A DNA stretch of 40,033 bases from an uncultured Olsenella sp. (GTDB taxonomy: Bacteria > Actinomycetota > Coriobacteriia > Coriobacteriales > Atopobiaceae). The notes under the pieces were generated by a model, which saw nothing but the letters and a program-made list of their open reading frames with translations, did not search any database and had not been told where the DNA came from. Positions 4,430 through 34,344 of this stretch are shown piece after piece. Position numbers and translations under genes: made by a program. The stretch is from assembly GCA_900314495.1 (NCBI GenBank), contig OMVJ01000018.1:49898-89930 (forward strand), in the 5' to 3' direction. Numbering within the stretch: the first letter of the stretch is position 1; each line of letters starts with the position of its first letter.

Positions 4430-6004
4430 TTATCCAACGCGCTCAATTATGCAGGAATGCTTACGTGTCTTCTTGTCATAGCTAACTCCGGCAAGTATGA
4501 CCTGACCACCATCTCTGCGCCATTGTTCAAGCACATCCGGATAACGCCTCTGATGAATCTGCTCGATGGCCGTCTCTGCAGATTCATCCCACTTGAGTTC
4601 CGCCACGATAGCCGGACGGTCAGCATAGGCACGCCGTGGAATGAAGACCAAGTCGGCAAACCCCTTGCCCGCCGGTAACTCCCTAATCACGTCGTACCAC
4701 TGTCTCGCAGCATATAGGCCAAGCGACAGTGTATATGCCAGAGCGTTCTCGTCGTTGTATGTCAGGTGACTCGTCTCTTGATGCGCGACCTCTATCCCCG
4801 CGGCCACAGCATCCTCATTACCAGCAATGATGTTCTGCAGCAGCCGCCCAGATCCCCTCACTGCACGAGCGACCTCGTTCCAGCCACCATTGTCAGTTGA
4901 GTTTACGAACTCCTGCATCACCTCTCGATTGGGCACAAAGACCTCTCTCGAGGTTTGATCATAGGCAAGATACCCAAGATGCACGAGCAATGCCAGCACA
5001 TCGTCAGCCGAGACGAAGGAGGTCATATCGTTGGAGAACTTCCCGATGTTTACCACATGACGATCGCCTGCCATCATCGCCACAACGGCATCACGTAGGC
5101 CATCGTAGTTGAGGTCCAAGTAGACCTTCAGGGCTTCGTAGGTCTCGGTGGAATTCCAGTAGTCGCCAAATGCGTGTCGGGTCATGGCTTCCACAATAGA
5201 TTGCGGCGAATATATTTCACCAGCACCCTCTAGCAGGTACCCGTCATACCAAGCACGCGTCTCATCGTATGGCATGTTCCACTCGCGGCAGAGTGCACGT
5301 ACTTCCGCGTCTGTGAAGCCCATGGTCGGTGCCAATACATCGGCATCAGCCATGGAGAACTCGCTGAACATGTTGAGCGCTGAGTGCTCCCCATACTTCT
5401 TGATGGGCAGGATGCCTGTCATGTACGCTAGGGCAACGTACGGACGATCCTTGAGCCAGAGGCGAAGGAAGTCTAGGTAGTCTCTCTGGGCATCCTCGTC
5501 ATGCTGGTACACACGGAAGACGGCATCCCACTCGTCGATGACTATTACGAACTGACGCCCCGTGGCATCGAATATCTTTGCCATAGACCGCGCTAGTCTA
5601 CGTTGGTCGAGCGGGACATCCGGATATTCCCCGCCAAGTTCTTCCAGCACCGACTCGGAGATGTCCTGCAACATGTCCGGCATATTGGCATTTTCGCTCA
5701 GGAAGTCACGGATGTTGAGCTTGATTACGTCATAACGGTTGCGGCACTCGTCAAACTTCGAGTCCTTGGCAATCTGTAGGCCATGGAAAACCTGTCTGCC
5801 GTCGACGGAACGATCGTAGTAAGCGCTCACCATGTTGGCGGCCATGGATTTGCCAAAGCGGCGAGGCCTGCTCACGCATACGTACTTTTGCTCGGAGTTC
5901 AGCACGGAATTGAGGTACGCAATGAGCGCACTCTTGTCTACGTAGATCTTTGAATTGCGACCCTGGCGCAACATCGCGTCACCCGGATTCAGAAACACGC
6001 CCAT
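4430..6004 (-). CDS. AAA-ATPase-like protein with C-terminal PD-(D/E)XK nuclease-type domain (copy 1)
   Basis: A 524-residue protein of the family annotated AAA-ATPase_like (PF09820) plus DUF1703 (PF08011). N-terminal YVDKS motif at 21-25, an atypical P-loop RPRRFGKS (46-53) and a Walker B strand FVIVIDEWD (152-160). The middle carries KKYGEHSALNMFSEFSM. The C-terminus has FADLVF...AELKW (ELKW at 469-472), as in PD-(D/E)XK nucleases. The start has a strong GGAGGTGAT ribosome binding site. A paralogue of the same architecture lies at 21320-22915. The family occurs in many copies in gut anaerobes and its function is unknown; defence or mobile-element roles have been suggested but nothing here proves either. 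Confidence 0.88.
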   Translation of the reverse strand: MGVFLNPGDAMLRQGRNSKIYVDKSALIAYLNSVLNSEQKYVCVSRPRRFGKSMAANMVSAYYDRSVDGRQVFHGLQIAKDSKFDECRNRYDVIKLNIRDFLSENANMPDMLQDISESVLEELGGEYPDVPLDQRRLARSMAKIFDATGRQFVIVIDEWDAVFRVYQHDEDAQRDYLDFLRLWLKDRPYVALAYMTGILPIKKYGEHSALNMFSEFSMADADVLAPTMGFTDAEVRALCREWNMPYDETRAWYDGYLLEGAGEIYSPQSIVEAMTRHAFGDYWNSTETYEALKVYLDLNYDGLRDAVVAMMAGDRHVVNIGKFSNDMTSFVSADDVLALLVHLGYLAYDQTSREVFVPNREVMQEFVNSTDNGGWNEVARAVRGSGRLLQNIIAGNEDAVAAGIEVAHQETSHLTYNDENALAYTLSLGLYAARQWYDVIRELPAGKGFADLVFIPRRAYADRPAIVAELKWDESAETAIEQIHQRRYPDVLEQWRRDGGQVILAGVSYDKKTRKHSCIIERVG

Positions 6005-9806: not shown

Positions 9807-10676
9807 CTACTCGATGCCAAATTCCTGAAAAAGTTGTTCTAGTATCTCGCGGTCACCCATGGCGGGCACTAGCTCGTCAGCCCTCCCATGGTCAGACAGC
9901 GCTTGGGCGAGCTTGCTCATCTTTTCGTACGTCTCTGCCTTTCCTTCCGCCTTTCCTTCTGCCTTTCCTTCTCGCCTGGCATCTTCCAAGTTCCACTCGT
10001 ACATGACGTATTCCTTCCTCTTCTTAGATGAGAGGAGCACCCTCTGCACGGTCTGTTGAATGTCCCGAACCAATTCGCTCTGTTCAGCATTATCACCCGC
10101 CAGATAGTCAAGTACGTCTTGAAGAGCATCGTTGACCGTGCCGACGGTGCCCGTGGCATTCAGGAACACGTGTTCGGTTCCATCCCAAGGCATCGCGACC
10201 TCGTTCTCAACACAGACCCGCCGATACGTATACCGCTTGAGGCCGTACCCAAACGGATCGAACGTGCAGAAGAAGATGACGTACGAATCCGAAAGTCGTC
10301 CGTAGTCCAACCCCTTGCCCAGCTGACCGGTATCCATAGCCGCCTGGTAATAGCGCGCACGCTTCACCAGGTCAGTCGCGTTGCTGCGCTGCATCTCCAC
10401 ATCGAACACGCGACCCGAGCCGTCCTTGGCGTACACGTCAAGCCTTACACCCTTCGAACTCGGCGAGGGTTCGAAGCCACGCTCGGCAGCACTCACTTCA
10501 ACATGATCGATGGGAATCTCCAGCACTGCCTCAAGCAGACGTTGACATACCTCGAGGTTCGACGCGAGCACCTCACCGAAGACGTAGTTGTCCGCGAAGG
10601 TGAGTTTGCTCCACTTGCCCTCCAGCCGATCGATGTCTTGCTGGCTTGGCATCTTATGATTCAATTCGTGCTCCAT
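9807..10676 (-). CDS. Rpn-family recombination-promoting nuclease / putative transposase
   Basis: A 289-residue PDDEXK_2-type (PF12784) protein. The N-terminal half has TFADNYVFGEVLA, then the nuclease core: Asp in VRLDVYAKD and the E-x-Q of FDVEMQ, followed by RARYYQAAMDTGQL and YVIFFCTFDPFG. The C-terminal part is helical and contains GKAEGKAEGKAE, coded by a 12-bp tandem repeat at 9937-9972. E. coli RpnA relatives cleave DNA and promote RecA-independent recombination. Here the activity is inferred from family only. The start at 10676 (MEHELNHKM) follows AAGGGGGC; an ATG 29 codons upstream is less likely. Two palindromes sit in its upstream region. Confidence 0.85.
   Translation of the reverse strand: MEHELNHKMPSQQDIDRLEGKWSKLTFADNYVFGEVLASNLEVCQRLLEAVLEIPIDHVEVSAAERGFEPSPSSKGVRLDVYAKDGSGRVFDVEMQRSNATDLVKRARYYQAAMDTGQLGKGLDYGRLSDSYVIFFCTFDPFGYGLKRYTYRRVCVENEVAMPWDGTEHVFLNATGTVGTVNDALQDVLDYLAGDNAEQSELVRDIQQTVQRVLLSSKKRKEYVMYEWNLEDARREGKAEGKAEGKAETYEKMSKLAQALSDHGRADELVPAMGDREILEQLFQEFGIE
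9937..9972 (-). repeat. In-frame 12-bp tandem repeat (three copies) in the Rpn-type gene
   Basis: Three adjoining copies of GCCTTTCCTTCT (first copy ends in C), read on the plus strand. On the coding strand each unit gives Gly-Lys-Ala-Glu. Because the unit is 12 bp, copy number can change without breaking the frame. Confidence 0.9.
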
Positions 10677-10782
10677 GCTGCCCCCTTGGTGTTTCGTACG
10701 ATTGCTTCGTTCGTTCAAGACAAGCTCGTCTAGGTACCTAACGGAGTGAAAGCGGATCCCCATCCATTTGGCTGTAATGTGA

Positions 10783-10818
10783 TGTTATGATAACACATAT
10801 AGCGAACCGTTGTTCGCT
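10783..10818. promoter_or_regulatory. Two adjacent palindromes upstream of the Rpn-type gene
   Basis: TGTTATGATAACA (10783-10795) is a perfect 6+1+6 palindrome. Five bases later AGCGAACCGTTGTTCGCT (10801-10818) is a perfect 7-bp stem with a 4-base loop. They lie about 110-140 bases upstream of the Rpn-type start. The first looks like an operator; the second could be an operator or a short hairpin. Confidence 0.45.
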
Positions 10819-10941
10819 TATCTAAGAAATCTGTTGTCCGTAGACGCGACAAGGGACACCCACTGCGGTCGCCTATCCACTGACTGTAATTCATGCAGCT
10901 GATGCCTATGGATCGCTCAAAACTTAAGAGCTCTCATGAGG

Positions 10942-11525
10942 TCAGCCTCTGCCATCAGTGACCTCCCGAGTCCCGCCCGCAGCTTGCGCGGCCTCCTCCT
11001 TGATGCAGCCCTCCAACGTGTTCAGGAAGAGCGGAACCATCGCTGACGGGCTGTACTTACGGTACGCATAGCCATAGGTGATAGACAGGTCAACCCTTCA
11101 CCTTGGCTCGCCACAAGTCCCCAAAGCGGGGCCGCGTAAAGCGCCGTTCGTCAGGAAGAACACGTCCGGATATATACATGGAGAGCATGTTGACCTGCTG
11201 GAAGTCCCTCATGGTGGAGGAGCACACGGCCTGCCTGACGCCCACGCGCAACTCCCCACCCAGTTCACGCACATACTCGTCGACCTCGTTCTGCATGAGG
11301 TCGTACTCGGCGAACATGCGCCTAAACCGCTTGGGCAAATGCCTCCCGCCGCGTTCGCACGTACCTCATGGCCGCTGCGGTCAAGCAAGGGAACTCCCAG
11401 CTCCTCCTCCACCTGCTCGCATGGTGTGAAATGGTGGGCGGGTCACGTACAACGCCTTGCCCGTTTGCGCGAAGCTCTTGTTGCTGGCCAAGTTCACAAA
11501 CTCGCGTACGTTCTACGTCAATCAT
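10942..11525 (-). pseudogene. LysR-type regulator, degraded
   Basis: Pieces of a LysR regulator lie in order but in different frames. Start: MIDVERTR at 11525, after GGAGGCGCCC. One frame over: EFVNLASNKSFAQTGKALYVTRPP, the helix-turn-helix region. Then EEELGVPLLDRSGHEV, the end of the HTH domain. Then RRMFAEYDLMQNEVDEYVREL, the linker helix, and GGELRVGVRQAV, the start of the effector domain. A final frame gives VDLSITYGYAYRKYSPSAM and LFLNTLEGCI, typical of the C-terminus, ending at 10942. At least three frameshifts are needed. The whole is only about 580 bp instead of ~900, so most of the effector-binding domain is deleted. Confidence 0.8.
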
Positions 11526-14838: not shown

Positions 14839-15747
14839 CTACGCGCTGGCCAGCGGCGTGAAGCCCACCTTCTGGAAGCAGGCGCTCGCGTCCGGGGTCT
14901 GCAGGAAGTCAAGGAACTCCTTGGCCAGCTCGGGCTCCGGTGCCTCCTTCAGCACGGCGGCGGGGTACACGACCTTGCCGCACATCTCCTCCGTTGCCTC
15001 GTCCACCACGGTCAGGCCCGCAGAGGTGGCGTCCGTCTTGTAGATTACGCCGCAATCAACCGCGGCCTCACTCACCTGAGAGGTGACCTCCTTGACGTTG
15101 GTTCCGTACGTGATGCAGCCAGCGTTGGCAAGCGTCTTTTCGTCCAGGCTGTAGTACGCAAGAATCTTTTGCGTGTACTGGCCAACGGGCACGTCGGAGT
15201 TGCCCATGGCCAGCAGGATGGACTGCCCCTTCAGCTTCTGCGCCATGTCGTCAAAGCCAGAGACCTTAGCGCCCTCGCCGCCCAAGTCCGGCACGACCAG
15301 CGTGACCTTGTTCTCCAGAATGTCAAAACGAGTGGAATGATCCACGAAGTCAAGGCCCTCGTCGTTGCCGGTCTCGGACTGTGCGTCCAGGGCGTTCATC
15401 TGTTTCTGCGCGGCGGAGATGAACACGTCGCACGCGGCACCCTCCTGAATCTGCGTCTTCAGCGTGCCAGATGAGTCAAAGTCGTACGAGATGTCCACGT
15501 TGGGGTTGGCCTGCCTGAAGAGGTCCGCAATCTCCGTAAGGGACTCCGTGAGCGAGGCGGCAGCGAAGACCGTCAGCGTCTTGCTCTCACCCGCACCCGC
15601 GGCAGACGAGCCAGCCGCACCGTTCGCGGCAGCTGACCCCGCGTCTGAGCTTGCGCCCGAAGATCCGCACGCGGCTAGTCCCAACGCGCCCACAAGACCA
15701 ACCGCGGCAACGAATGCGCGCCTGGTCATACCGTATGTTCCGCCCAT
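14839..15747 (-). CDS. modA: Molybdate-binding lipoprotein of an ABC transporter
   Basis: A 302-residue periplasmic-binding-type protein for molybdate or tungstate. The N-terminus has a twin-arginine-like start (MTRRAFVAAVG), a hydrophobic stretch and a lipobox LAAC, then a Ser/Ala/Gly-rich linker, so it should be an anchored extracytoplasmic lipoprotein. The mature part begins TLTVFAAASLTESLTEI, typical of ModA, with SSGTLKTQI, ACDVFISAAQKQM and a C-terminal EFLDFLQTPDA. Start at 15747 (MGGTYGMTRR) follows AGGGGAAG. It starts 13 bases after xdhC stops and is the last gene of that operon. The permease and ATPase genes (modB, modC) are absent from the window. Confidence 0.93.
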   Translation of the reverse strand: MGGTYGMTRRAFVAAVGLVGALGLAACGSSGASSDAGSAAANGAAGSSAAGAGESKTLTVFAAASLTESLTEIADLFRQANPNVDISYDFDSSGTLKTQIQEGAACDVFISAAQKQMNALDAQSETGNDEGLDFVDHSTRFDILENKVTLVVPDLGGEGAKVSGFDDMAQKLKGQSILLAMGNSDVPVGQYTQKILAYYSLDEKTLANAGCITYGTNVKEVTSQVSEAAVDCGVIYKTDATSAGLTVVDEATEEMCGKVVYPAAVLKEAPEPELAKEFLDFLQTPDASACFQKVGFTPLASA

Positions 15748-15760
15748 ACTTGCGCTTCCC

Positions 15761-16789
15761 CTACTTGCCCGCATGAGGCCTTGCGTCGGAAGGCCTCAAC
15801 TCCGCGCGACAGCGAATCATCTCCGCCGCGATGGATACCGCAATCTCCGCAGGCGTGACGGCCAGAATCCGCTCGCCAATCGGCAAATGGATGCCATCAA
15901 GCCACCCCTTGTCCACCCCGCGCCGTGCTAGTTCCTCGCGCGCAAAGGCGGCCTTGGCGCGGCTGCCGATGCAGCCCACGTAGGCCGGCCGTACGCGAGC
16001 CAGCCGTTCCAGCACGTCAATGTCCGCCGCATGGCCGTGCGTGAGCACAACGGCGTAATCACGCCGCGTGACCTGCACTTTATTGCTAAGGTCCAAAAAG
16101 TCACCGCAGATCACGCGCTCCGCCGCAGGGAACCGCTCCGGACGCGAGAACTCCTCGCGGTCGTCGTACACCACCACACGGAAGCCCACGCTGGCCAGCA
16201 CGGGCGCAAGCGCGCAACCCACGTGGCCGCCGCCAAAGATGTATGCGATGGGGTCGGGACCCATGGGCTCCGCGTACGTGCGCGCCTCCTCGCTCCACAG
16301 TGGCACCTCCGCATTGGCAGCGGGGTCATCTGCGGCAAGCTCTTCCACGTCCGCCAGGGTCATCACAGGCTTGGCAGGGTCCGACCAATCCTCAGACAGC
16401 ACAAAGCGCTTCTCCGCCACCAGGCAATCGCACAAGCCCTCAAGAAAGTCCTGCTCGCCAGGGGTGCAGAGGCGCACGCCCACCAGGGCGTCGCCCCCGC
16501 ATGCCATGCCGGTCTTTGCGTGCGTCAGCCACTCCAGCGAGGGTTCCTCCGCACCGGCAAGCACGGCGCGAAGCCGCTCCTCCCCCATCTGCTCCACGCG
16601 GCCACCGCCGATGGTCCCCATGAAGGTACCGTCCGCCAGCAAGGCCAGCCTCGCGCCTGCGGCCCGCGGCATGGACCGGCGCGTGGCCAGGACCGTTGCC
16701 AAAGCAAAGGGCCGGCCAGCGCGAGCCTCCACAAGTAGCTTCTCAACAAACCGCAGGTCGCGCATGGTATCGCGAGAGTCTTCCAACAT
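15761..16789 (-). CDS. xdhC: XdhC/CoxI-family molybdenum hydroxylase maturation protein
   Basis: A 342-residue accessory factor. In this family XdhC binds molybdenum cofactor and helps sulfurate and insert it into xanthine dehydrogenase-type enzymes. N-terminal XdhC domain with LATVLATRRSMPRAAGARL, DGTFMGTIGGGRVE and TGMACGGDALV; C-terminal Rossmann domain with YIFGGGHVG (about 187-195) and VVVYDDREEF, then VLTHGHAADIDVL and YVGCIGSRAK. Start at 16789 is 2 bases beyond the yqeB stop, with GAGGGGG as ribosome binding site. Downstream of yqeB it most likely serves a selenium-dependent hydroxylase. Confidence 0.93.
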   Translation of the reverse strand: MLEDSRDTMRDLRFVEKLLVEARAGRPFALATVLATRRSMPRAAGARLALLADGTFMGTIGGGRVEQMGEERLRAVLAGAEEPSLEWLTHAKTGMACGGDALVGVRLCTPGEQDFLEGLCDCLVAEKRFVLSEDWSDPAKPVMTLADVEELAADDPAANAEVPLWSEEARTYAEPMGPDPIAYIFGGGHVGCALAPVLASVGFRVVVYDDREEFSRPERFPAAERVICGDFLDLSNKVQVTRRDYAVVLTHGHAADIDVLERLARVRPAYVGCIGSRAKAAFAREELARRGVDKGWLDGIHLPIGERILAVTPAEIAVSIAAEMIRCRAELRPSDARPHAGK

Positions 16790-16791
16790 GT

Positions 16792-17598
16792 TTACCCCCT
16801 CAGCCTTCCAGAGAAGTGCAGCAGTGCCTCCAGCACGCCACCGCCCACGGCGCGCGCCTTGTCAGAACAGGTGAAGCAGTGCGCGCGCTTGCAGCGCGGG
16901 TCGATGTCGCCGGACTTCATGCCCTTGGTCACGGGCACGCCCTCCTGCAGCAGGCCGCGCAGGATGCCGTCGATGGTGGCGGGCATGGGCTGACCCTCCA
17001 CCGTGGCAATGAGGTCACCCCGCTTCACCTGGTCCCCAATGTGGGCAACAGGTTTGAAGAGGCCATCCGCCGGCGCTCGCAGCACACGCTCCGTGGTGTA
17101 GCCGCCAATGTTGCCAGGCACTCCGGTGTTGGGAATGGCGGAGCCGTCGTAGATCACGCGTCCCAGGTAGTGGCCGCGCTTGGTCTCTATGACGGCATCG
17201 CAATCCGCGTGGGGGTCCGCCCCGGCGCGGAAACCCGGTCCAACAGCAATCACGATGGGCGCCATGTCCTTGTTGGTACCCAGGTTGCGCTTGGCAATAA
17301 TCGCGTCGACCACTGCCGCTGGCTTGAGCTCGGCAATGGAGGCGCCGTCTGGGTCAACCAGCACAGCCACGTGGCCCATCTCCGCCACGCGACGAGCCTC
17401 GTCCGCCGTGGCGCAGCGGTATGCGCACACGTCCTCCACGGTTGCCTCTCCCAGTCGTATGGCCTCACTGAAGGCAACAGTCCTGCGCACCGCCGTGGGA
17501 ACGGCCACGTCCGTCATCACTATGTTCGCGCCGGCACCATGCAGGCGAATGGCAACACCCGTCGCGAGGTCCCCCGCTCCGCGAATCACGACCAACAT
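16792..17598 (-). CDS. yqeB: Selenium-dependent molybdenum hydroxylase accessory protein YqeB (EF2563 family)
   Basis: A 268-residue protein. Its family marks genomes with selenium-dependent molybdenum hydroxylases and an orphan SelD. N-terminal MLVVIRGAGDLATGVAIRL resembles a nucleotide-binding fold; then TDVAVPTAVRRTVAFSEA and IAVGPGFRAGADPHADCDAV. The end is a biotinyl-like hammerhead (APADGLFKPVAHIGDQV) and a cysteine-bearing tail CKRAHCFTCSDKARAVGGGV. First gene of a three-gene operon yqeB-xdhC-modA, divergent from yqeC across 71 bases that must carry both promoters. Biochemical function is not established for the family. Confidence 0.92.
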   Translation of the reverse strand: MLVVIRGAGDLATGVAIRLHGAGANIVMTDVAVPTAVRRTVAFSEAIRLGEATVEDVCAYRCATADEARRVAEMGHVAVLVDPDGASIAELKPAAVVDAIIAKRNLGTNKDMAPIVIAVGPGFRAGADPHADCDAVIETKRGHYLGRVIYDGSAIPNTGVPGNIGGYTTERVLRAPADGLFKPVAHIGDQVKRGDLIATVEGQPMPATIDGILRGLLQEGVPVTKGMKSGDIDPRCKRAHCFTCSDKARAVGGGVLEALLHFSGRLRG

Positions 17599-17669
17599 GT
17601 CAACTCACTCCAACCGAACTCGCACCCACACCTGTACCATGTATACGCACGCATTCTTTGGAGCAGCCC

Positions 17670-18356
17670 ATGAACCTTGCACGCGTCATGCATATTTCTG
17701 GCGGCGTCACCGCCGTCATCGGCAGCGGCGGGAAGACGACGCTCCTGTCCGCACTGGCAGGCAACCTCTCCGGCACCGTCATCCTCACCACCTCCACGCA
17801 CATCCTGCCCTTCCCCAACCTGCCCTTGGCAAGCAACGAAGCGCAGGTCAAAGCCCTCATTGGTGCCAACCACATCGTCTGCGTTGGCGCGCCAGTCGCA
17901 AACGGCAAGCTTGCTGAGCCCGCCTGCGGAATTCCCACGCTCGCACCGCTGGCTGACCACGTGCTGGTGGAAGCCGACGGCTCCCACCACCTTCCCCTCA
18001 AGGCGCACGCAGAGTGGGAACCCGTGGTCCCCGCCAGCACCAACCAGACCATCCTGGTGGTGGGCGCCTCCGGATTTGGCCAGCCCGTGAAGAAGGCCGT
18101 CCACCGGCCGGAGCTCTTCTGCAAGCGCACCGGCTGCCTTCCAACGGACCCCGCAGGCCCCCGGCTGGTTGCCCGCGAGCTTGCGGCGGAGGTTGGCGAG
18201 GGTCGCATCGCCTTCGACCGCCTGCTCGTCAACCAAGTGGACGACGAGCACGCCCTCGCGGATGCCACCGCCCTTGCCCACGAGCTTGCCCGCCTGGGCA
18301 TCTGCCAGCCCGTTGTCGCTGCCTCGCTCCGCAGCGGTTGGGCGCAGCAGCTCTAG
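17670..18356 (+). CDS. yqeC: Selenium-dependent hydroxylase accessory protein YqeC
   Basis: A 228-residue P-loop protein of the YqeC family, a partner of YqeB in selenium-dependent molybdenum hydroxylase loci. P-loop GSGGKTTLL (about 18-26), ILTTSTHI, then HVLVEADGSHHLPLKAHAEWEP, the hallmark of the family, and LLVNQVDDE. Start at ATG 17670 (MNLARVM), with GGAG six bases ahead; a TTG four codons upstream is also open. It diverges from yqeB and converges on hydA with only 4 bases between the stops, so the two transcripts must overlap at their 3' ends. Confidence 0.92.
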   Translation: MNLARVMHISGGVTAVIGSGGKTTLLSALAGNLSGTVILTTSTHILPFPNLPLASNEAQVKALIGANHIVCVGAPVANGKLAEPACGIPTLAPLADHVLVEADGSHHLPLKAHAEWEPVVPASTNQTILVVGASGFGQPVKKAVHRPELFCKRTGCLPTDPAGPRLVARELAAEVGEGRIAFDRLLVNQVDDEHALADATALAHELARLGICQPVVAASLRSGWAQQL

Positions 18357-18360
18357 CGCG

Positions 18361-19719
18361 CTACCTGGCCACGTACGTGCCCGGCTTCGCCCCAGTGGGC
18401 TCGCCGTCCCGCGCAGCAAGCTCGCCGTTCACGTACACCAGGTGCGCGCGGCCCTTGCACTGGAAGCCCTCGTAGGTGGTGTAGTCAACGTTTTGGTGCT
18501 GCGTCGCCGCGCTGATGGTCCACTCCTGTGCGGGGTCCCACACGCAGACGTCTGCATCGGATCCCACGGCCAGGATGCCCTTGCGCGGGAACATGCCAAA
18601 GACGCGTGCCTGGTTCTCGGAGAGAAGAGCCAGCAGCTCGCGCGGGCCCAGCGCATCCGCGAAGCTGGTGGCAATGAGCGCCGGCCTGTGCTCCACGCCG
18701 GGACCGCCGTTGGGAATCTTGCGGAAGTCACCCATGCCGCGGTCCTTCTGCCCATGCAGGTTGAAGGAGCAGTGGTCGGTGGAGATGGTGTCAATCTCCC
18801 CCTCAACCACGGCCCTGCGCAGGGCGGCGCGGTCCGTGGCCTTGCGCAGCGGCGGGCTCATGACGTACTTGGCGCCCTCGAAGCCGGGCTCCAGGTAGCG
18901 GGTCTCGTCCAGCAGCAGGTACTGGGGGCAGGTCTCCACAAAGATGTTCCTCTGGCCGCGCTCCTTTGCCGCACGGATGACCTCCAGCCCCAGCTTGGTG
19001 GAGAGGTGCACCACGTTCACGCGGGCATCCCCGGCCAGGTGGGCAATCATCAGCAGGCGGGAGATGGCCTCCGCCTCGCAGACGTCCGGCCGGCTCATGG
19101 GGTGGCCCTCCGGCCCGGTCACGCCGGACTCGAACACGCGCCGCTGCAGCTCGTTCACCAGGGTGCCGTTCTCGCAGTGCACGCAGAGGGTGCCACCCAA
19201 GGGCGCCAGGGCCTCCAGCACCTCCAGGGTCTGGGCGTCGTCCAGCCGCAGGTGGTCATAGGCAAAGTAGGTCTTGAAGGAGCTCACGCCCGCCTGGCGA
19301 ATGGCCGCCAGGTCGGCGCGGGTCTGGTCGCTCCAGTCCGCGATGGCCATGTGGAAGGCGTAGTTGGCGGCACACGTGCCGTCGGCGCGCCTGTGCCACT
19401 CCTCCAGGGCCTGCGGCATGGTCATGCCCTTGTCCTGGGTTGCGTAGTCCACGATGGTGGTGGTGCCACCGCACGCTGCCGCGCGGGTTCCCGTCTCGAA
19501 GCTGTCCGCCGTCCAGTCCATGCCCGTCCAGCACTGCATGTGCGTGTGGGCGTCAATGAAGCCCGGGAAGACCCAGCAGCCCGTCACGTCCGTGACCTCG
19601 TCGGCCTCCGCCGGGGAAATGGTGCCCCCCACGCGCACGATCTTGCCGCCCTCCATGGCAAGGTCACCCACGACCAAGCCCTGCGGCAGCACCAGCGTGC
19701 CACCCTTCAATACCTTCAT
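18361..19719 (-). CDS. hydA: Dihydropyrimidinase / hydantoinase-type amidohydrolase
   Basis: A 452-residue zinc amidohydrolase that opens cyclic ureides (dihydropyrimidines, hydantoins). It has metal ligands in FPGFIDAHTHM (about 57-67), a candidate carboxylated lysine in SSFKTYFAYD, HCENGTLV, VVHLSTKLGLE and the catalytic Asp in ISTDHCSFNL. Start at 19719 (MKVLKGG), with AGGAAG upstream, 4 bases beyond the mocA stop. HydA-type enzymes are regular members of selenium-dependent molybdenum hydroxylase clusters, as in the E. coli ygeW-ssnA region. The true substrate there is uncertain. Confidence 0.9.
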   Translation of the reverse strand: MKVLKGGTLVLPQGLVVGDLAMEGGKIVRVGGTISPAEADEVTDVTGCWVFPGFIDAHTHMQCWTGMDWTADSFETGTRAAACGGTTTIVDYATQDKGMTMPQALEEWHRRADGTCAANYAFHMAIADWSDQTRADLAAIRQAGVSSFKTYFAYDHLRLDDAQTLEVLEALAPLGGTLCVHCENGTLVNELQRRVFESGVTGPEGHPMSRPDVCEAEAISRLLMIAHLAGDARVNVVHLSTKLGLEVIRAAKERGQRNIFVETCPQYLLLDETRYLEPGFEGAKYVMSPPLRKATDRAALRRAVVEGEIDTISTDHCSFNLHGQKDRGMGDFRKIPNGGPGVEHRPALIATSFADALGPRELLALLSENQARVFGMFPRKGILAVGSDADVCVWDPAQEWTISAATQHQNVDYTTYEGFQCKGRAHLVYVNGELAARDGEPTGAKPGTYVAR

Positions 19720-19723
19720 GCCA

Positions 19724-20353
19724 TCATCTTCCTTCGACGATGCGTTCAATGCGCTCCAGGTCGGCGGGGGTGTCTATGTCCATGACCTCGGCCTTGGAGC
19801 CCGCCTCCACAAGAATCGTCCTGCTGGCAAGGTCTGGGTCGTTCCGCAGAATCTGCGAGCCACCCACGTCGCCCTCCAGCGCCCTCAGCCTGCGGAAGAG
19901 CCTCCGCGGGAAGAGCACCGGGTTATGCGCCTGGCCCTTCCACGCCAACCGCACCACGCGGTCGGGATGCTGCCCGAATGCGTCCAGCATGGCACGCACG
20001 CTCGCCTGCGTAAGCAGCGGCTGATCGGCCGTTACGAACAGGCAACCGTCCCAGCGCTCCTCCCCCGCGGCAAGGCCAATGCGAACCGTGTCGCTCTGGT
20101 AGGGCAACACGTTCAGGTAGTACGGCACGTCCAGCTCTATCATGAGCCGGGCAACGTCCATGGACCGCGTTACCACCACGGGCTCCACCGCGTCCAAGGG
20201 CAGGGCTGCGAGCGTGTGCTGAATGACGGGCTTCCCCGCCAAGTCCGCCAGCAGCTTGTTGGACCCGAACCTGCGTGCCACGCCAGATGCCATGACCACG
20301 GCGCCAATGCTCAAGGCCTTGCCACTTGCGCTTTCCTTAGCTTCCTTCTCCAT
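19724..20353 (-). CDS. mocA: Molybdenum cofactor cytidylyltransferase-like nucleotidyltransferase
   Basis: A 209-residue NTP-transferase-fold protein of the MobA/MocA group. MocA adds CMP to molybdopterin to form the MCD cofactor used by xanthine dehydrogenase-family enzymes. It has the nucleotide-binding start VVMASGVARRFGSNKLL (about 20-36), FVTADQPLLT with the metal-binding Asp, and HNPVLFPRRLF. Start at 20353; the ribosome binding site is weak (GTGGGCG). Operon with hydA. CTP rather than GTP specificity is inferred from the cluster. Confidence 0.87.
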   Translation of the reverse strand: MEKEAKESASGKALSIGAVVMASGVARRFGSNKLLADLAGKPVIQHTLAALPLDAVEPVVVTRSMDVARLMIELDVPYYLNVLPYQSDTVRIGLAAGEERWDGCLFVTADQPLLTQASVRAMLDAFGQHPDRVVRLAWKGQAHNPVLFPRRLFRRLRALEGDVGGSQILRNDPDLASRTILVEAGSKAEVMDIDTPADLERIERIVEGR

Positions 20354-21319: not shown

Positions 21320-22915
21320 TTAGCAGCGCTCAATAACGCACGTATGCTCGCGGGTCGACTTGTCGTAGCTCACGCCTGCCAGAATCAGCTCACCGCCGTC
21401 GGCAAGCCACTGGTCAAAGACAGCTGGGTAGTGCTTGCGGTGGATTTGCGCGATGGCCGCGTCGGCAGACTTGTCCCACTTGAGCTCAATTAGGATTGCC
21501 GGTCGGTTCGCATACATGCGACGTGGTACCAAAGCGAGGTCGGCGAACCCCTTGCCCGCAGGCAGTTCACGCGTCACCGTGTACCACTGGCGCGCAGCAT
21601 AGAGTCCAAGCGACAGCGTGTAGCTGAGCGCCTCCTCGCTGTTGTAGCTGATGTGGCTGGTCTCTTGGTGTGCCGCCGCAATGCCCGCCGCCACAGCCTC
21701 CTCGTCACCGGCGATGATTGCATCCAAAAGGTCCTTCGACCCCTGCACCGCGCGCGCCACCTCGTCCCAGCCACCTACGCTTGTAGCGCTGACGAACTCG
21801 GCTGCCACCTCGCGGTTGGGCACGAAGGCCTCTTTGGTCTCCCGGTCGTAACCCAAGTAACCCAAGTGCACAAGCAACGTGAGCACGTCATCCGCCGTGG
21901 CGAAGGTGGTCATGTCGTTGTTGAAGGTTCCGACGTTTATCTGGCGCCTGTCGCCTGCGAGCAACGCCACGACTGCATCGTGAAGGCCATCGTAGTTCAT
22001 GTCGATGTAGACCTTCAGTGCTTCGAACGTCTCCGTCTGGTTCCAGTAATCCTCGAAGGAGTGGCGCGTCATCGCTTCGACGATGGACTGCGGCGAGTAC
22101 ACGTCAATCTCCGCGCTCTCGTCCCCGTGCACCCAGACGAGCCTGTACCCGTCATACCAGGCCTTTGTCTCGTCGTACGGCATGTTCCACTGCTGGCAGA
22201 GCTCGCGCACCTCCGCCTCCGTGAATCCCATGGAGGGAGCAAGCAGGTCCGCACTGGTCATCGAGAACTCGCTGAACATATTGAGCGCCGAGTGTTTTCC
22301 GTACTTCTTTATGGGAAGGATGCCCGTCATGTAGGCTAGTACCACATAGGTCTTGTCCTTTAGCAGAACGCGCAGCCAGTCCAGATACGCCTTCTGGCCA
22401 GCATCGTCGTCCATAGCCTCCCGCATGAGGCAGTCCCACTCGTCGATTACGATAACGAAGCGATGGCCGGTCTGGGCATACACGTCCCCTAGAACGAGCG
22501 GAAGATCTTCCTCATCCAGCAGGCCTACCTCCGGATATGCCCGCTTGACCTCGTGCGTCACAACGAGGGTGATGCGTCGCAACATGGCATTGACATCGTG
22601 GGTCTTGGTCCAATAATCCACCATGTTGAGCCGGATCACGTCGAAGCGGTTGCGATACTCGTCAAAGCTAGGGTCATCCGCGATGTCGAGGCCGGCAAAA
22701 GCATCGGCACCGTCGACCGTACGATCGTAGTAGGCACAAAGCATGTTGGCCGCCATGGACTTGCCAAAGCGGCGAGGGCGAGAGACACAGACGTACTCCT
22801 GCTCGGTGTCCAAGACGCTGTTTGTGAACGCAAGGAACGCCGACTTATCCACGTATATTTTTGAATTCCGTGCGCGGCGCAGTGCGTCCGCGCCTGGGTT
22901 CAGGTAGATGCCCAC
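21320..22915 (-). CDS. AAA-ATPase-like protein with C-terminal PD-(D/E)XK nuclease-type domain (copy 2)
   Basis: A 531-residue paralogue of the gene at 4430-6004, similar along its whole length: same YVDKS, RPRRFGKS (46-53), FVIVIDEWD, KKYGKHSALNMFSEFSM, EALSYTLSLGLYAARQWY and IELKW near the end. It differs by a few extra residues in the middle (VWVHGDESAEID). Start is GTG at 22915 (VGIYLNPG) after GGGAGG. A large perfect inverted repeat lies about 125 bases upstream. Function of the family is unknown. Two divergent but intact copies 17 kb apart argue for old duplication or repeated acquisition rather than a recent copy event. Confidence 0.88.
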   Translation of the reverse strand: MGIYLNPGADALRRARNSKIYVDKSAFLAFTNSVLDTEQEYVCVSRPRRFGKSMAANMLCAYYDRTVDGADAFAGLDIADDPSFDEYRNRFDVIRLNMVDYWTKTHDVNAMLRRITLVVTHEVKRAYPEVGLLDEEDLPLVLGDVYAQTGHRFVIVIDEWDCLMREAMDDDAGQKAYLDWLRVLLKDKTYVVLAYMTGILPIKKYGKHSALNMFSEFSMTSADLLAPSMGFTEAEVRELCQQWNMPYDETKAWYDGYRLVWVHGDESAEIDVYSPQSIVEAMTRHSFEDYWNQTETFEALKVYIDMNYDGLHDAVVALLAGDRRQINVGTFNNDMTTFATADDVLTLLVHLGYLGYDRETKEAFVPNREVAAEFVSATSVGGWDEVARAVQGSKDLLDAIIAGDEEAVAAGIAAAHQETSHISYNSEEALSYTLSLGLYAARQWYTVTRELPAGKGFADLALVPRRMYANRPAILIELKWDKSADAAIAQIHRKHYPAVFDQWLADGGELILAGVSYDKSTREHTCVIERC

Positions 22916-23040
22916 ACGCGCCTCCCAAGTCTGCTCTGTGTGGCAATTCTACCAGCAAGCTAAGCGTGCCTAGGAGTATTGATGTCTGAGACAACGCACT
23001 ACAATCGCCTTTTCAAGATCAGATGGGCAGACATTCACCC

Positions 23041-23108
23041 TGTCCCACGGAATCTTGGACAGATTCGTCCCTTCGTGGAACCGATCTTGTCCAAGATTCC
23101 GTGGGACA
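23041..23108. repeat. Large perfect inverted repeat (21-bp arms, 26-base loop)
   Basis: Arms at 23041-23061 and 23088-23108 are exact reverse complements; each arm begins TGTCCCACGG or ends CCGTGGGACA. Each arm is itself bounded by TGTCC and GGACA. It stands between two genes on the minus strand, about 125 bases upstream of the AAA-ATPase-like gene. There is no U-tract, so it is not a simple terminator; it resembles a REP/MITE-like palindrome. Confidence 0.85.
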
Positions 23109-23198
23109 CGCATCGGAAGGCCATTGCAAGCAGCAGCGGCCCGGAAAAGTGGTTCCATTCGGCCCTCTACTTACAAGGCCAAGAAGGCCGCGCGGCGC

Positions 23199-24179
23199 CT
23201 AGTCCTGCGGGAACACCACGCCGGCACCCAGGCGAAGCTCCGTCTGCACGCGGCTGACCTCGAGCGACAAGTCAAGCTCGCGCAGGCAGCCGGCAAGGTC
23301 GCCGGAGTCCATCTGCTGCTGGAAGTGGCGGAACTCCCCCTCCCAAGGGGCCGAGAGGCTGCGGTCGTACGTCTCCTCGGTGCCGTCGTTCAGGCGCAGC
23401 GTGACCGCGCCGCACACGTTGGGTGCGGTGTTGCTCACGATGGAACCCTCGGTGCCCTGGATTACCGTCTGCGTGAAGTTGCAGTCCTTGGAGCAGATGC
23501 AGGCGACCTGGAAGCCGTCGTACTCCAGCGTGGAGATGCCCGAAGTGTCGATGTTGCGCTCCACGTTTGCCGCATAACGGCAGGTCAGTGGCTTGCCGAA
23601 GAGGCCGATTGCGTACGTGAGCGTGTAGAGGCCAATGTCCATGATGGCACCGCCGGCCTTGGCCGGGTCAAACGCGGGCAGGACCTCCCCCGCGCGGAAG
23701 GCGTCGTAGCGGCTGGAGTACTGCGAATAGTTGATGGTAGCGATCTTGACATCACCTATGCGGCCCAGCAGCTCGTCACGCACCAAGAGGAAGTTGGGCT
23801 GGCGCGTGGTTACCACGGCCTCCCAGAAGAAGACGCTCGCCGCCTTGGCCTCCGCCACAAGCTCCGCCGCCTCACGCGCGTTGGAGGCAAGGGGCTTCTC
23901 GCAAATGACGTTCTTGCCGGCGGCCATGGCCTGCTCGCTCACGGGCTTGTGGAGGAAGTTGGGCACCGCGACGTAGACGGTGTCAACGTTTGGGTCCGCC
24001 ATGAGGACTGCCTGGTCATCGTAGGCGGCTGCGCCCGGGAAGTAATCCGCGATGAGCTCGCGCGTCTTCTGCGCGCTGCGCGGCGTGCCGGCCACAGCAG
24101 TTACCTCGACGCCCCACGAGGTCAGGTAGGGGGCAATCATCTGCGTCATCTTGCCCGTGCCAACGATTCCAAGTTTCAT
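23199..24179 (-). CDS. Gfo/Idh/MocA-family oxidoreductase
   Basis: A 326-residue NAD(P)-dependent dehydrogenase. N-terminal Rossmann motif GIVGTGKMTQM (about 4-14), the EKP motif with the probable catalytic lysine in NVICEKPLASN, and the C-terminal alpha/beta domain with GGAIMDIGLYTLTYAIGLFG. Start at 24179 (MKLGIVGTG), GGGAG upstream. Substrates in this family are sugars, inositols or related polyols; nothing in the sequence or neighbourhood settles which. It follows guaD on the same strand after a 174-base gap with its own palindrome, so it is probably transcribed separately. Confidence 0.88.
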   Translation of the reverse strand: MKLGIVGTGKMTQMIAPYLTSWGVEVTAVAGTPRSAQKTRELIADYFPGAAAYDDQAVLMADPNVDTVYVAVPNFLHKPVSEQAMAAGKNVICEKPLASNAREAAELVAEAKAASVFFWEAVVTTRQPNFLLVRDELLGRIGDVKIATINYSQYSSRYDAFRAGEVLPAFDPAKAGGAIMDIGLYTLTYAIGLFGKPLTCRYAANVERNIDTSGISTLEYDGFQVACICSKDCNFTQTVIQGTEGSIVSNTAPNVCGAVTLRLNDGTEETYDRSLSAPWEGEFRHFQQQMDSGDLAGCLRELDLSLEVSRVQTELRLGAGVVFPQD

Positions 24180-24353: not shown

Positions 24354-25643
24354 TCAGAACAGCTGGCACCCCGCCACGAACTTGTGGGCGATGCGCCCAC
24401 CCTCGCTGGACAGGTGGCAGAAGCGCTCCAGGCGCTGAGCCGCATCAAGGTGCCGCGGGGTGCGAATGCCGGAGTCGTCCAGCACCAGCGCGTCGAACTC
24501 GTAGCCGGCGACCAGGCTCCCCACCCTGCCGAAGAAGGAGCCACCACCGCACGTGGCCAGCCAGAACGCCTCTTGGATGGAGAGCGGCGGCAGCCCCTGG
24601 TCCACGCAGCGCCACCTCAGCTTTGAGACGGCCACGGCGTCACTCACCGCGCGGAACATGTTGAGGCTCGCACCGCCGGCAACGTCCGTGCCCAGACCGA
24701 CGTTCATGCCCAGGTCCAGGTAGCGGCGGATGGGCGCCATGCCGGAGCTGATGAGGGTGTTGGACTGCGGGCAATGGGCGATGTAGGTGCCGTGGGCCTG
24801 CAAGAGCCGGACCTCCTCGTCTGAGCAGTAGTTGCAGTGCGCCATGATGGCCTTGCCGCCTGCTGGGCCCTCGTCTCCCAGCAGGCCGAAGCGCGCGTAC
24901 GTCTGCCCGTAGCAGCTGGACCAGGGGCAGAGCTCCTTGACCCAGGCAATCTCGGAGAGGTTCTCAGAGAGGTGCGACTGCACGTTGAGGCCGCGCTCAT
25001 GGGCCAGCCTGCCCAGACCGCTCATGAGCTCGTCGTCGCAGCTGGGCGTGAAACGCGGCGTGATGATGGGCCGCGTGTTGGAGTAGCCGCGCGCCTCCAC
25101 GCCGTCCAGCCACGCACGCGTGGCCGCCAGCGAATCCGCCGCCGTGCCGTCGGCCAGGTAGTCAGGGCTGTTGCGGTTCATGTTGACCTTGCCCACGAAC
25201 GTCTTGAGACCCGTGGCCTCCAGCTTGTCCATGAGGAGCATCGTGGCAGGAACGTGCAGCGTGCCAAAGATGGCCGCCCGCGTGGTGGCGGAGCGGGCAA
25301 GGTCCTCCACGAAGTAGCCGTAGGCCTGGTGTGCATACGAGAGGTCCGCGTACTTGGCCTCCTCCGGGAAGGTGTAGGTGTTCAGCCAGTCCAGAAGCTC
25401 CAGGTCCGCACCCGTGCCGCGGAAGGTGTACTGGGGCGCGTGCACGTGCAAGTCCACTAGGCCGGGGCAAATTAGCTTGCCCGCGCAGTCAACCAGCGGC
25501 AGGTCAGCGTAGTCGGGCGGGATCTCGTCGAAGACGCCCGCACTCACGCCGTCATGGCAGACCACGTACGCATCCTCCCGCGCGTCGAAGGTCGTCGGGC
25601 TGGCGTTGTAGCACACAGCACCCCTGAGGACGAACCCATTCAT
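24354..25643 (-). CDS. guaD: Guanine deaminase
   Basis: A 429-residue zinc amidohydrolase converting guanine to xanthine and ammonia. It has PGLVDLHVHAPQYTFRG (about 60-76), in which HVHAPQY is typical of guanine deaminases. VQSHLSEN, AHCNYCSDEE and GTDVAGGASLNMF supply further metal and substrate contacts. Start at 25643 with GAGGTG upstream. It reads away from the YheO-type regulator and the xpt-M20 genes, across a region with hairpins. Product xanthine is the substrate of the xanthine phosphoribosyltransferase nearby and of xanthine dehydrogenase-type hydroxylases. Confidence 0.93.
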   Translation of the reverse strand: MNGFVLRGAVCYNASPTTFDAREDAYVVCHDGVSAGVFDEIPPDYADLPLVDCAGKLICPGLVDLHVHAPQYTFRGTGADLELLDWLNTYTFPEEAKYADLSYAHQAYGYFVEDLARSATTRAAIFGTLHVPATMLLMDKLEATGLKTFVGKVNMNRNSPDYLADGTAADSLAATRAWLDGVEARGYSNTRPIITPRFTPSCDDELMSGLGRLAHERGLNVQSHLSENLSEIAWVKELCPWSSCYGQTYARFGLLGDEGPAGGKAIMAHCNYCSDEEVRLLQAHGTYIAHCPQSNTLISSGMAPIRRYLDLGMNVGLGTDVAGGASLNMFRAVSDAVAVSKLRWRCVDQGLPPLSIQEAFWLATCGGGSFFGRVGSLVAGYEFDALVLDDSGIRTPRHLDAAQRLERFCHLSSEGGRIAHKFVAGCQLF

Positions 25644-25685
25644 GTCTGCACCTCGCGACTCGTGGTCTGTAAGTCGTCACAAAGA

Positions 25686-25721
25686 ACCCGCCGCTCCATT
25701 GTATGCAAGGGAGCGGCGGGT
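25686..25721 (-). promoter_or_regulatory. Terminator-like hairpin in the leader region of guaD
   Basis: A perfect 12-bp GC-rich stem (ACCCGCCGCTCC with GGAGCGGCGGGT) and a 12-base loop, followed on the minus strand by TTCTTTG. It lies 43 bases upstream of the guaD start and no other minus-strand gene ends here. So it may be an attenuator in the guaD leader. I could not match a known purine riboswitch ahead of it. Confidence 0.5.
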
Positions 25722-25731
25722 CTCGCCACGT

Positions 25732-25762
25732 GTGTCAAAAGGGAAACGTCCCCTTTTGGCAC
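25732..25762. repeat. Short palindromic repeat, GGGGACGT-core family
   Basis: Arms GTGTCAAAAGGG and CCCTTTTGGCAC pair over 12 positions with one mismatch around a 7-base loop. The same core (GGGGACGT followed by CC and TTTTG, minus strand) recurs at 31622-31650. It ends exactly where the promoter of the regulator gene begins. Confidence 0.8.
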
Positions 25763-25791
25763 TTGAAGTCAGACAAATTGTTTGGTCTAAT
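25763..25791 (+). promoter_or_regulatory. Candidate promoter of the YheO-type regulator
   Basis: TTGAAG, 17 bases, TCTAAT, with a TG one base before the -10 box. It lies about 120 bases upstream of the regulator's start. An imperfect palindrome (AGACAAATTGTTTGGTCT, 25771-25788) covers the spacer and could be an operator. Confidence 0.5.
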
Positions 25792-25910
25792 AACTTCTAG
25801 TCTGTTAAGGTGGTCTGGGATGTCCCAGAGCGCGCAGGCTTGCACTAATGCCCGAGGCCAGGACGACCAAGGGTCCCACAACTGGTAGCGCGGTGGCACG
25901 GGAGGCACAC

Positions 25911-26564
25911 ATGGATGCGCAGCAGAGGGAGTTCTGCCAGAGGGTGGCGCGGGGCATTGCCACGGAGTTTGGCCCAAAGTGCGAGGTTGTGGTGCACGAC
26001 CTTGAGAGTGCCGACCCCGACCACACCGTCATCATTGTGGAGAACGGGGAGGTGACGGGAAGGAAGGTGGGCGACGGCCCCTCCCGCGTGGCCCTGGAGG
26101 CGCTGCGCAGCAAGTGCAATCCTCCCCAAGACAGGATTGCCTACCTCACCAAGACGGAGGACGGGCGCATCCTCAAGTCCACCACCATCTTCCTGCGCAA
26201 CCAGGACGGCGAGGCCACCGGCATCCTGGCCATAAACTACGACATAACCCTCATGGTGAGCGCCAGCCAGGAGCTGAGCGCGCTTGCCGGCGACGCGGGT
26301 GACACCGCGAAAACCGCCCAGTTCATCCCCCGCAGTGTGAGCCAGCTGCTGGACGACCTCATAGAGAAGAGCGTGGAACTCGTCGGCAAGCCCGTATCGC
26401 TCATGGGCAGGGACGACAAGGTGCGTGCCGTCGGCTTCCTGGACAACGCCGGCGCCTTCCTCATAACGCGGGCGGGACAGCGGGTGTGCGACCGCTTCGG
26501 CATATCAAAGTTCACCCTTTATAGCTATCTGGACGCCGCGCGGCAGCAGGCGCAGGGAGCATAG
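25911..26564 (+). CDS. YheO-like PAS/helix-turn-helix transcriptional regulator
   Basis: A 217-residue protein of the YheO/DauR type. N-terminal PAS-like domain with FGPKCEVVVHDLES and TGILAINYDIT; C-terminal HTH near residues 180-210, RVCDRFGISKFTLYSYLD. Relatives control catabolism of amino acids or purine-related compounds. Start at 25911 (MDAQQREF) follows GGGAGG five bases before; an ATG 21 codons upstream also lies in frame but lacks a good site. It is divergent from guaD and 103 bases ahead of xpt, so it is the obvious candidate regulator of this purine locus. Confidence 0.85.
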   Translation: MDAQQREFCQRVARGIATEFGPKCEVVVHDLESADPDHTVIIVENGEVTGRKVGDGPSRVALEALRSKCNPPQDRIAYLTKTEDGRILKSTTIFLRNQDGEATGILAINYDITLMVSASQELSALAGDAGDTAKTAQFIPRSVSQLLDDLIEKSVELVGKPVSLMGRDDKVRAVGFLDNAGAFLITRAGQRVCDRFGISKFTLYSYLDAARQQAQGA

Positions 26565-26623
26565 GGTACTGCTGGCCTGATTTATGCCGCCCGTACCAGA
26601 AACCCTCCCTTAGCGCTACACTT

Positions 26624-26644
26624 CTGCACATCGCATATGTGCAG
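26624..26644. promoter_or_regulatory. Inverted repeat just upstream of xpt
   Basis: CTGCACAT, 5 bases, ATGTGCAG: perfect 8-bp arms ending 23 bases before the xpt ATG. Either an operator or a hairpin close to the ribosome binding site (AAGGGGAA). Confidence 0.5.
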
Positions 26645-26667
26645 ACGGGGTCTGGAAGGGGAACTAC

Positions 26668-27246
26668 ATGCAGGAGCTTGAGGAGCGAATCCTGACCGAG
26701 GGCGTCATCAGGCCGGGCAACGTGCTGAAGGTGGACGGCTTCATCAACCACCAGTGCGACGTGGACCTGTTCGACAGGATGGGTGCCGAGTGGGCACGGC
26801 TCTTCGCCGGCCGCCCCGTGGACAAGATCCTGACCATCGAGGCCTCGGGCATTGCGCTGGCCAGCATCGCGGCACTGCACTTCGGCCGCGTTCCCGTGGT
26901 GTTCGCGCGCAAGTCCGTGGGCAAAAACCTTGACGGCGACCTCTACCACGCGGTCGTTCACTCCTACACGCACGGCGTGGACAACAACGTGATCGTGGAG
27001 CGCCGCCTGCTCAACCCCGGCGAGAACGTCATCCTTATCGACGACTTCCTGGCCAACGGTGCCGCCATCCGCGGCTTGCTGGAGATTTGCGACCAGGCCA
27101 AGGTCAACGTGCAGGGCATTGGCATCGCCGTGGAGAAGGGCTTCCAGACCGGTGGCCACGACCTGCGCGCCATGGGCTACGACGTGCAGTCCCTGGCCAT
27201 TGTCCAGGAGATGGATGCCGACACGGGCACCATCCGCTTTGCCTAG
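26668..27246 (+). CDS. xpt: Xanthine phosphoribosyltransferase
   Basis: A 192-residue salvage enzyme that makes XMP from xanthine and PRPP. Start [25 protein letters not shown] as in Bacillus Xpt (shown here only by key parts: LEERI, VLKVD, FINHQ). It has [18 protein letters not shown] and the PRPP loop [11 protein letters not shown] (about 126-136). Full family length. AAGGGGAACTAC precedes the ATG. Its stop lies 12 bases before the M20 gene's GTG, so the two form an operon. Confidence 0.93.
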
Positions 27247-27258
27247 CGCAAGGGTAAT

Positions 27259-28398
27259 GTGACTTCCGTGCAAGCTTCCGATGCTCTGGGCCTGCTGAGA
27301 CAACTTGCCGTCATTCCCGCGCCGTCCCACCATGAGGAGCGGCGCGCCACTTTCGTGCGGGACTGGCTGCGCGCGGCGGGTGCCACCCACATGGAGATTG
27401 ACGACGTCAAGAACGTGGTGTGCCAGCTGGGACCCGCGGACGTGGACCGCTTCGTGGTCTTCTCCGCACACACGGACGTCGTGTTCCCGGACACGGACCC
27501 ACTGCCCCTGCACGAGGACGCAGAGAAGATCTATGCCCCTGGCGTGGGCGATGACACCGCCAACCTGTGCGCCCTGCTGCTGGCAACGCGCGAGCTCATT
27601 GCCCACCCCGAGGCCCTGCCGCGCAGCTGCGGCGTGCTGGTGGTGGCCAACTCCTGCGAGGAGGGCCTGGGCAACCTGGACGGAACCAAGGCGCTCTACC
27701 GCAGGTACGCGGGGCAGATTGTGGAGCACGTGGCCTTTGACCTGTACCTGCCGCAGTGTATCTCCTGCGCCGTGGGCTCGCACCGCTACCGCATTACCTG
27801 CCACACGCAGGGCGGCCACTCCCTGCGGGACTACGGCCGCCCCAACGCCATAGAGGTCCTGTGCAACCTGGTGGAGGACCTGTACGGCAACGGGCGTCCC
27901 TGGGGCGCGGAGCCCTTCCCCGACGACGAGGGTGCCACGCAGAACGTGGGGGTCATCAGCGGCGGAACCAGCGTGAACGCCATCCCCGCGGAGGCCAGCA
28001 TGCTGTACGAGTACCGGTCCGCGTCTGAGCTGATGCTCCAGAACCTGGCAAGCAGGCTGCGTGGCACAATTCAGAAGCACAGCCACTTCGACGGAACGCT
28101 TGAGCTGCAGTGCATTGGCGAGCGTCCGGGCAACGGGCGCGTGGACCAGGTTGCCCTTGAGGCGCTGGCGGCCCGGGCGGGCGAAGTCATCACCCGCGTT
28201 ACGGGCCAGGAGCCGGACCAGTCCCCCGCCTCCACGGACGTCAACGTGCCCCTCTCGCTGGGGATTCCCGCGGTATGCGTGGGCGCCGTGCGCGGCGGCC
28301 TTCTGCACACCCGCGACGAGTGGGTGGAGAAGGCCAGCCTGGAAGACGGTTGCCGCGTGGCGCACGACATCATGTTCGGCGAGCTGGCGCGCCTGTAG
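27259..28398 (+). CDS. M20-family metallo-amidohydrolase/peptidase
   Basis: A 379-residue zinc hydrolase. Metal ligands are visible in VFSAHTDVVFP (His, about 75), GVGDDTANL (Asp) and NSCEEGLGN (Glu-Glu), with the dimerisation-domain segment CHTQGGHSLRDYG. The GTG start (VTSVQASD) lies 13 bases from xpt. Members act as peptidases, deacylases or carbamoyl hydrolases. In selenium-dependent molybdenum hydroxylase loci an M20 protein (YgeY) is a frequent companion, so a role in ureide or carbamoyl-amino-acid breakdown is possible but not shown. Confidence 0.85.
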   Translation: MTSVQASDALGLLRQLAVIPAPSHHEERRATFVRDWLRAAGATHMEIDDVKNVVCQLGPADVDRFVVFSAHTDVVFPDTDPLPLHEDAEKIYAPGVGDDTANLCALLLATRELIAHPEALPRSCGVLVVANSCEEGLGNLDGTKALYRRYAGQIVEHVAFDLYLPQCISCAVGSHRYRITCHTQGGHSLRDYGRPNAIEVLCNLVEDLYGNGRPWGAEPFPDDEGATQNVGVISGGTSVNAIPAEASMLYEYRSASELMLQNLASRLRGTIQKHSHFDGTLELQCIGERPGNGRVDQVALEALAARAGEVITRVTGQEPDQSPASTDVNVPLSLGIPAVCVGAVRGGLLHTRDEWVEKASLEDGCRVAHDIMFGELARL

Positions 28399-31617: not shown

Positions 31618-31621
31618 CCAA

Positions 31622-31647
31622 TGAGACAAAAGGTACGTCCCCGTGTC

Positions 31648-31650: not shown

Positions 31651-34344
<2,694 letters not shown>

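Follow-up and report, generated by a model that had tools for sequence, protein, structure and literature searches.

Haft and Self (2008) predicted that YqeB, YqeC and YgfJ are maturation proteins, and they also reported fusions of YqeB with XdhC (PMC2276186). In C. difficile, selD and yqeB are required for growth on xanthine and uric acid, and deletion of yqeC gave no phenotype under the conditions tested; yqeB, yqeC and selD are not neighbours in that species, where the dispersed version of the system is still functional (PMC11448449). A pathway of reductive uric acid degradation that includes HyuA has been published as well, and so has a uric acid cluster of Collinsella aerofaciens (PMC12542679).

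The window analysed here is the whole stretch of 40,033 nucleotides (G000:C48:49898-89930) that forms the right end of the 89,930-base contig C48, in a draft assembly of 2.80 Mb that is 99% complete and consists of 65 contigs. The host genome carries the same marker families as the Haft and Self system (yqeB TIGR03309, yqeC TIGR03172, selD and, as the best-matching family below its cut-off, ygfJ/mocA TIGR03310) and has in common with it the co-occurrence of the markers with selD and hydroxylases, the yedF and cysteine desulfurase partners and, in relatives, the YqeB-XdhC fusions. However, the genes of the set are distributed here among three contigs or more, and the selenocysteine (Sec) type of SelD is present, within a selenocysteine system, not an orphan. 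As in C. difficile, the maturation genes are unlinked from selD, but yqeB and yqeC, which lie apart in that species, are kept together here with mocA and xdhC. The locus is very probably one functional piece of a scattered set of genes for selenium-dependent molybdenum hydroxylases and the anaerobic breakdown of xanthine and uric acid. The system is known and complete, and probably working; only the gene order in this genome and the fold-based hypotheses are new.

Gene content and layout of the locus

An earlier note on this DNA had described yqeB, xdhC, modA, yqeC, mocA and hydA within 5.5 kb, followed downstream by guaD, xpt and M20 hydrolase genes. All of these were found (Table 1), and the six genes of the locus, strongly assigned by family profiles, are intact and open, with the high third-position GC of the local coding frames. 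The score of mocA lies below the TIGR03310 cut-off of 186 bits, yet far above that for MobA. The genes form three transcription units and not a single operon: yqeB-xdhC-modA on the minus strand, where yqeB and xdhC are 2 bases apart and xdhC and modA overlap; yqeC, divergent on the plus strand with its start 59 bases from yqeB; and mocA-hydA on the minus strand, where mocA overlaps hyuA and a 4-base gap separates the unit from the convergent yqeC.

Table 1. Positions of the locus genes and of other features. Numbers refer to the window unless a contig or locus is named.
Feature	Contig or locus	Position	Strand	Profile match
modA, molybdate-binding lipoprotein	window	14839-15774	-	TIGR01256, 118 bits (cut-off 62.5)
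xdhC, hydroxylase maturation factor	window	15761-16789	-	PF13478 and PF02625, both over cut-off
yqeB	window	16792-17598	-	TIGR03309, 366 bits (cut-off 220)
yqeC	window	17658-18356	+	TIGR03172, 154 bits (cut-off 73)
hyuA-type D-hydantoinase ('hydA')	window	18361-19749	-	TIGR02033, 519 bits (cut-off 393)
mocA/ygfJ-type molybdenum cofactor cytidylyltransferase	window	19724-20353	-	best match TIGR03310, 123 bits
six-gene locus	window	14839-20353		
guaD-like, xpt and M20 hydrolase genes	window	24354-28398		
regulator-like protein	window	25848-26564		
regulator-like paralogue	L011	17076-18083		
AAA-ATPase-like copies	window	4430-6004; 21320-22915	same strand	
inverted repeat	window	23041-23108		
stretch without assigned gene	window	around 22915-23199		
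REP-like copy	window	31625-31642 (hairpin about 31621-31653)		
REP-like variant	window	25734-25753		
further REP-like copies	L078	6274, 6514, 7936		
further REP-like copy	L010	10779		
further REP-like copies	L011	11041, 11166		
further REP-like copy	L012	5855		
selD, Sec-type	C36	16536-17459		381 bits
selD of a relative (G366:C1)	L085	about 10084-11130		
yqeB of Spirochaetes	L018	2713-3549		
yqeB of Spirochaetes	L020	963-1799		

The downstream M20 hydrolase is not YgeY, scoring 26 bits where the cut-off is 321; the gene for YgeY itself is on contig C17. Beside guaD/xpt, in divergent orientation, lies a gene for a regulator-like protein whose paralogue (50% identity over 236 amino acids) is encoded, likewise divergently, beside the permease/8-oxoguanine deaminase end of the C17 cluster described below, and the pair could possibly provide shared control of purine genes. 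A stretch of the window to which no gene was assigned harbors an inverted repeat that folds into a hairpin of very high stability (-47 kcal/mol over 91 bases).

The window copy of modA is the single TIGR01256 match in the genome, that of xdhC is the only credible one, and that of hyuA is the only close one, the next best being 28% identical. Thus the locus is not a spare, and under the model of a dispersed functional set it would be needed for the import of molybdate, for maturing the hydroxylases and for the pathway of uric acid breakdown. Two candidate second copies were discarded: a weak XdhC match on contig C55, whose open frame is that of a glycosyltransferase, and a 439-amino-acid protein beside modBC, which has no NCBIfam match at the threshold used and does not significantly resemble the ModA of the window.

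The gene labelled hydA is better read as hyuA, whose product is predicted to open the ring in reductive uric acid degradation, a catalytic rather than an accessory function. Since this is the only close HyuA, the locus would give a pathway enzyme along with the maturation factors. Profile matches for an XDH homologue, YgfK, SsnA, HyuA, YgeW, YgeY and YgeX are all present in the genome. These are all the enzyme families of the cluster for reductive uric acid degradation known from E. coli and from gut anaerobes (XdhD, YgfK, SsnA, HyuA, YgeW, YgeY and YgeX). In contrast to that cluster, HyuA is encoded here with the maturation genes, on another contig than the remaining enzymes. Collinsella aerofaciens, the species with the published uric acid cluster, is a member of the same class as the host, which the earlier note gives as Coriobacteriia, in keeping with the gene content.

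Hydroxylases, selenium genes and gene order beyond the window

Neither a hydroxylase nor selD was seen among the window ORFs. The genome-wide search that the earlier note had proposed for selD, selA/selB and hydroxylase large subunits found all of them, on contigs C36 and C17, so that the absence it described is true of the window only. The genome has two hydroxylase large subunits (PF02738), both on C17, in agreement with the suggestion that the client had been separated from the cofactor genes or that several hydroxylases are served elsewhere. One is a xanthine dehydrogenase XdhA, encoded with XdhB and the iron-sulfur subunit XdhC (xdhABC), and the other, of 941 amino acids, scores 1135 bits against TIGR03311 Se_dep_XDH (cut-off 830). 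Around them we found YgeW, YgeY, YgeX, YgfK, SsnA and 8-oxoguanine deaminase, all above cut-off (1279 bits against 835 for YgfK). From the ORFs, a carbamate kinase-like gene (ck) and two that resemble permeases were read as well. On C36, selD lies beside selA (543 bits) and selB (344 bits), with YedF and cysteine desulfurase genes nearby. It carries an in-frame TGA at the catalytic position (motif SG-U-AAK), which makes SelD a selenocysteine enzyme and not an orphan. The missing client is an effect of window size and of cluster break-up, and a false puzzle is thereby removed.

When gene order was compared in 40 loci from relatives, the common arrangement within the same family was modA-xdhC-(selD)-yqeB, a divergent yqeC, then hydA-mocA. 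In many relatives ck-ygeW-ygeY (often with ygeX) directly follows mocA, and modB adjoins modA in 22 of the 23 loci that hold modA. In the host, modB and an ATPase frame are found on C36 beside moaA-like and moaC genes, the neighbour of modA is a 5-formyltetrahydrofolate cyclo-ligase gene, and ck-ygeW is on C17; both edges of the block have been severed, one at the modA-modB junction and the other at mocA-ck. Within C48, almost 20 kb with other genes lie beyond mocA; ck is found some 132 kb into C17, and the genes read just before it are unrelated, so that the mocA-ck junction is broken within contigs. The distance on the same contig from yqeB to the nearest listed hydroxylase in relatives has a median of 21 kb and ranges from 2 kb to hundreds of kb, some of the values being upper bounds. 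The comparison places the subunits just outside related loci, which the earlier note had regarded as the mark of an ordinary arrangement. In the host, 22 kb separate yqeB from its contig end, and on C17 the nearer hydroxylase has 30 kb between it and the contig end; given an assembly of 65 contigs, the two may be as close as about 52 kb.

Repeat elements were sought at the exact breakpoints of the locus and not found. Two AAA-ATPase-like gene copies with 71% DNA identity flank the locus region, a possible substrate for recombination. We also observed a REP-like palindromic repeat with the core ACAAAAGG(1-5 bases)CGTCCCC, of which the genome contains 141 exact copies, compared with 0 for the reversed control; they are frequently arranged as inverted pairs about 30 bases apart. 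Copies occur in the window, near modB and within the C17 cluster; there was no match to the repeat in any fetched locus of other genomes, and no Rfam match in the window. That this repeat had a role in the break-up of the cluster is only a guess.

Predicted roles of YqeB and YqeC

The AlphaFold model of YqeB (pLDDT 95) combines an N-terminal Rossmann part with a barrel at residues 169-233, a carrier-like region already noted by the C. difficile authors (PMC11448449). The barrel superposes on the biotin carrier domains 5gu9 (Z 9.8, rmsd 1.2 over 65 residues, 26% identity) and 9yx1 (Z 9.7, rmsd 1.1 over 64 residues, 31% identity). Position 204, which we read by eye as that of the biotinyl lysine, is proline in 36 of 44 sequences and lysine in none, which argues against biotinylation. 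YqeB-XdhC fusions were seen at four loci of one genus and at two Spirochaetes loci; as a class of protein they are not new, having been reported by Haft and Self (2008; PMC2276186). In the Spirochaetes, a 600-amino-acid frame apparently has a weak XdhC-like match before YqeB, whereas in the fusions of relatives YqeB comes first and XdhC second. This suggests that the fusion arose independently more than once.

For YqeC, sequence-profile matches are weak, and both SRP-receptor and Mur-ligase/FolC-like P-loops appear among them, so that our reading of the protein relies on its AlphaFold model (pLDDT 97). The model aligns with FtsY (Z 12.2, rmsd 3.1, 167 aligned residues), UreG (Z 10.4, rmsd 3.4, 151 aligned), MeaB (Z 10.1, rmsd 3.7, 162 aligned) and HypB (Z 10.0, rmsd 3.7, 160 aligned), and a SIMIBI-type P-loop NTPase fold is predicted. 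The protein has a conserved GxGGK motif, an invariant EADG of the ExxG type and, from an NQxD motif, a conserved N. Among the invariant residues are G22, G24, G25 and E105-A-D-G108, and K26 is present in 38 of 39 sequences. UreG, HypB and MeaB help in the insertion or protection of metal cofactors, and a similar role for YqeC is reasonable as an idea. We tentatively propose, at less than even probability, that YqeC could be a SIMIBI/G3E-like nucleotide-driven insertase resembling these proteins, with YqeB as the partner that carries or handles the selenium-bearing molybdenum cofactor and acts directly with XdhC. The fold predictions give testable roles to both proteins.

The biochemical roles in the following scheme are drawn from published work and attached to genes whose identity, integrity, genome content, co-occurrence and conserved order were established here. 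ModA, with ModBC encoded on C36, would import molybdate, and MocA would produce the dinucleotide (cytosine) form of the cofactor, which XdhC may bind and then sulfurate or deliver. YqeB, probably together with YqeC, would bring selenium made available by the C36-encoded SelD to the cofactor of the two C17 hydroxylases, in an order of steps that we infer. The window HyuA and the C17-encoded YgfK, SsnA, YgeW, YgeY and YgeX would then account for purine ring opening.

Co-occurrence in the class and alternative readings

In a panel of 396 genomes of the host's class, in which gene sets were compared by genome, YqeB exceeded its cut-off in 103, and every one of the 103 also has a PF02738 hydroxylase and an over-cut-off selD. 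About 14 panel genomes have a strong hydroxylase match without YqeB. One of these (G156), which also seemed to lack selD, is no clear counter-example, as its contig starts inside mocA, exactly where yqeB and selD would come next. Among the 78 genomes searched for selB, it was present in 15 of 77 that are YqeB-positive, so that most YqeB-positive relatives searched have SelD without SelB. The orphan SelD of the earlier note fits these relatives as far as SelB is concerned, but not the host, where SelA, SelB and a Sec-type SelD are present.

Two side observations concern SelD. The selD of one relative (G366) has a TGA at the selenocysteine position, and no SelB was found at E 1e-60 in this 95% complete genome, which may be due to a gap in the assembly or else to an unusual state. 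In many relatives' loci (e.g. L035, L036 and L055), a TGA-free selD and cysteine desulfurase and YedF-like genes lie inside the yqeB locus, in contrast to the Sec-type selD near selAB in the host; lineages seem to have switched their selenophosphate source.

The earlier note had also considered that the client was lost and that the maturation genes persist without function, as the window itself, lacking hydroxylase and selD, might suggest. However, the genome holds two intact hydroxylases and a Sec-type SelD, the six reading frames are uninterrupted and look like coding sequence, and the genome offers no close duplicate of ModA, XdhC or HyuA. The idea of a relic fails on the retention of hydroxylase and selD in all the YqeB genomes of the panel, and we consider it highly improbable. 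Hardly any probability attaches, too, to an assembly artefact, with blocks that adjoin in the real chromosome. Although the genome is a 65-contig draft and the window end is a contig end, the mocA-ck junction is broken inside both C48 and C17, and modA is followed by the cyclo-ligase gene and not by modB.

It could also be argued that the locus serves ordinary sulfur-type molybdenum hydroxylases and that YqeB and YqeC are there through ancestry only. XdhC and MocA serve sulfur-type enzymes too, and the panel genomes with a strong hydroxylase match but no YqeB imply that hydroxylases can work without it. However, the second C17 enzyme lies well over the Se_dep_XDH cut-off, YqeB is always accompanied by selD in the panel, and in C. 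difficile growth on xanthine or uric acid requires both yqeB and selD (PMC11448449), so that this explanation seems to us unlikely.

Surveys that rely on gene linkage and look no further than about 15 genes would overlook HyuA in genomes such as this one. In this class, the maturation block, HyuA, molybdate uptake and selenophosphate supply co-occur regardless of their position.
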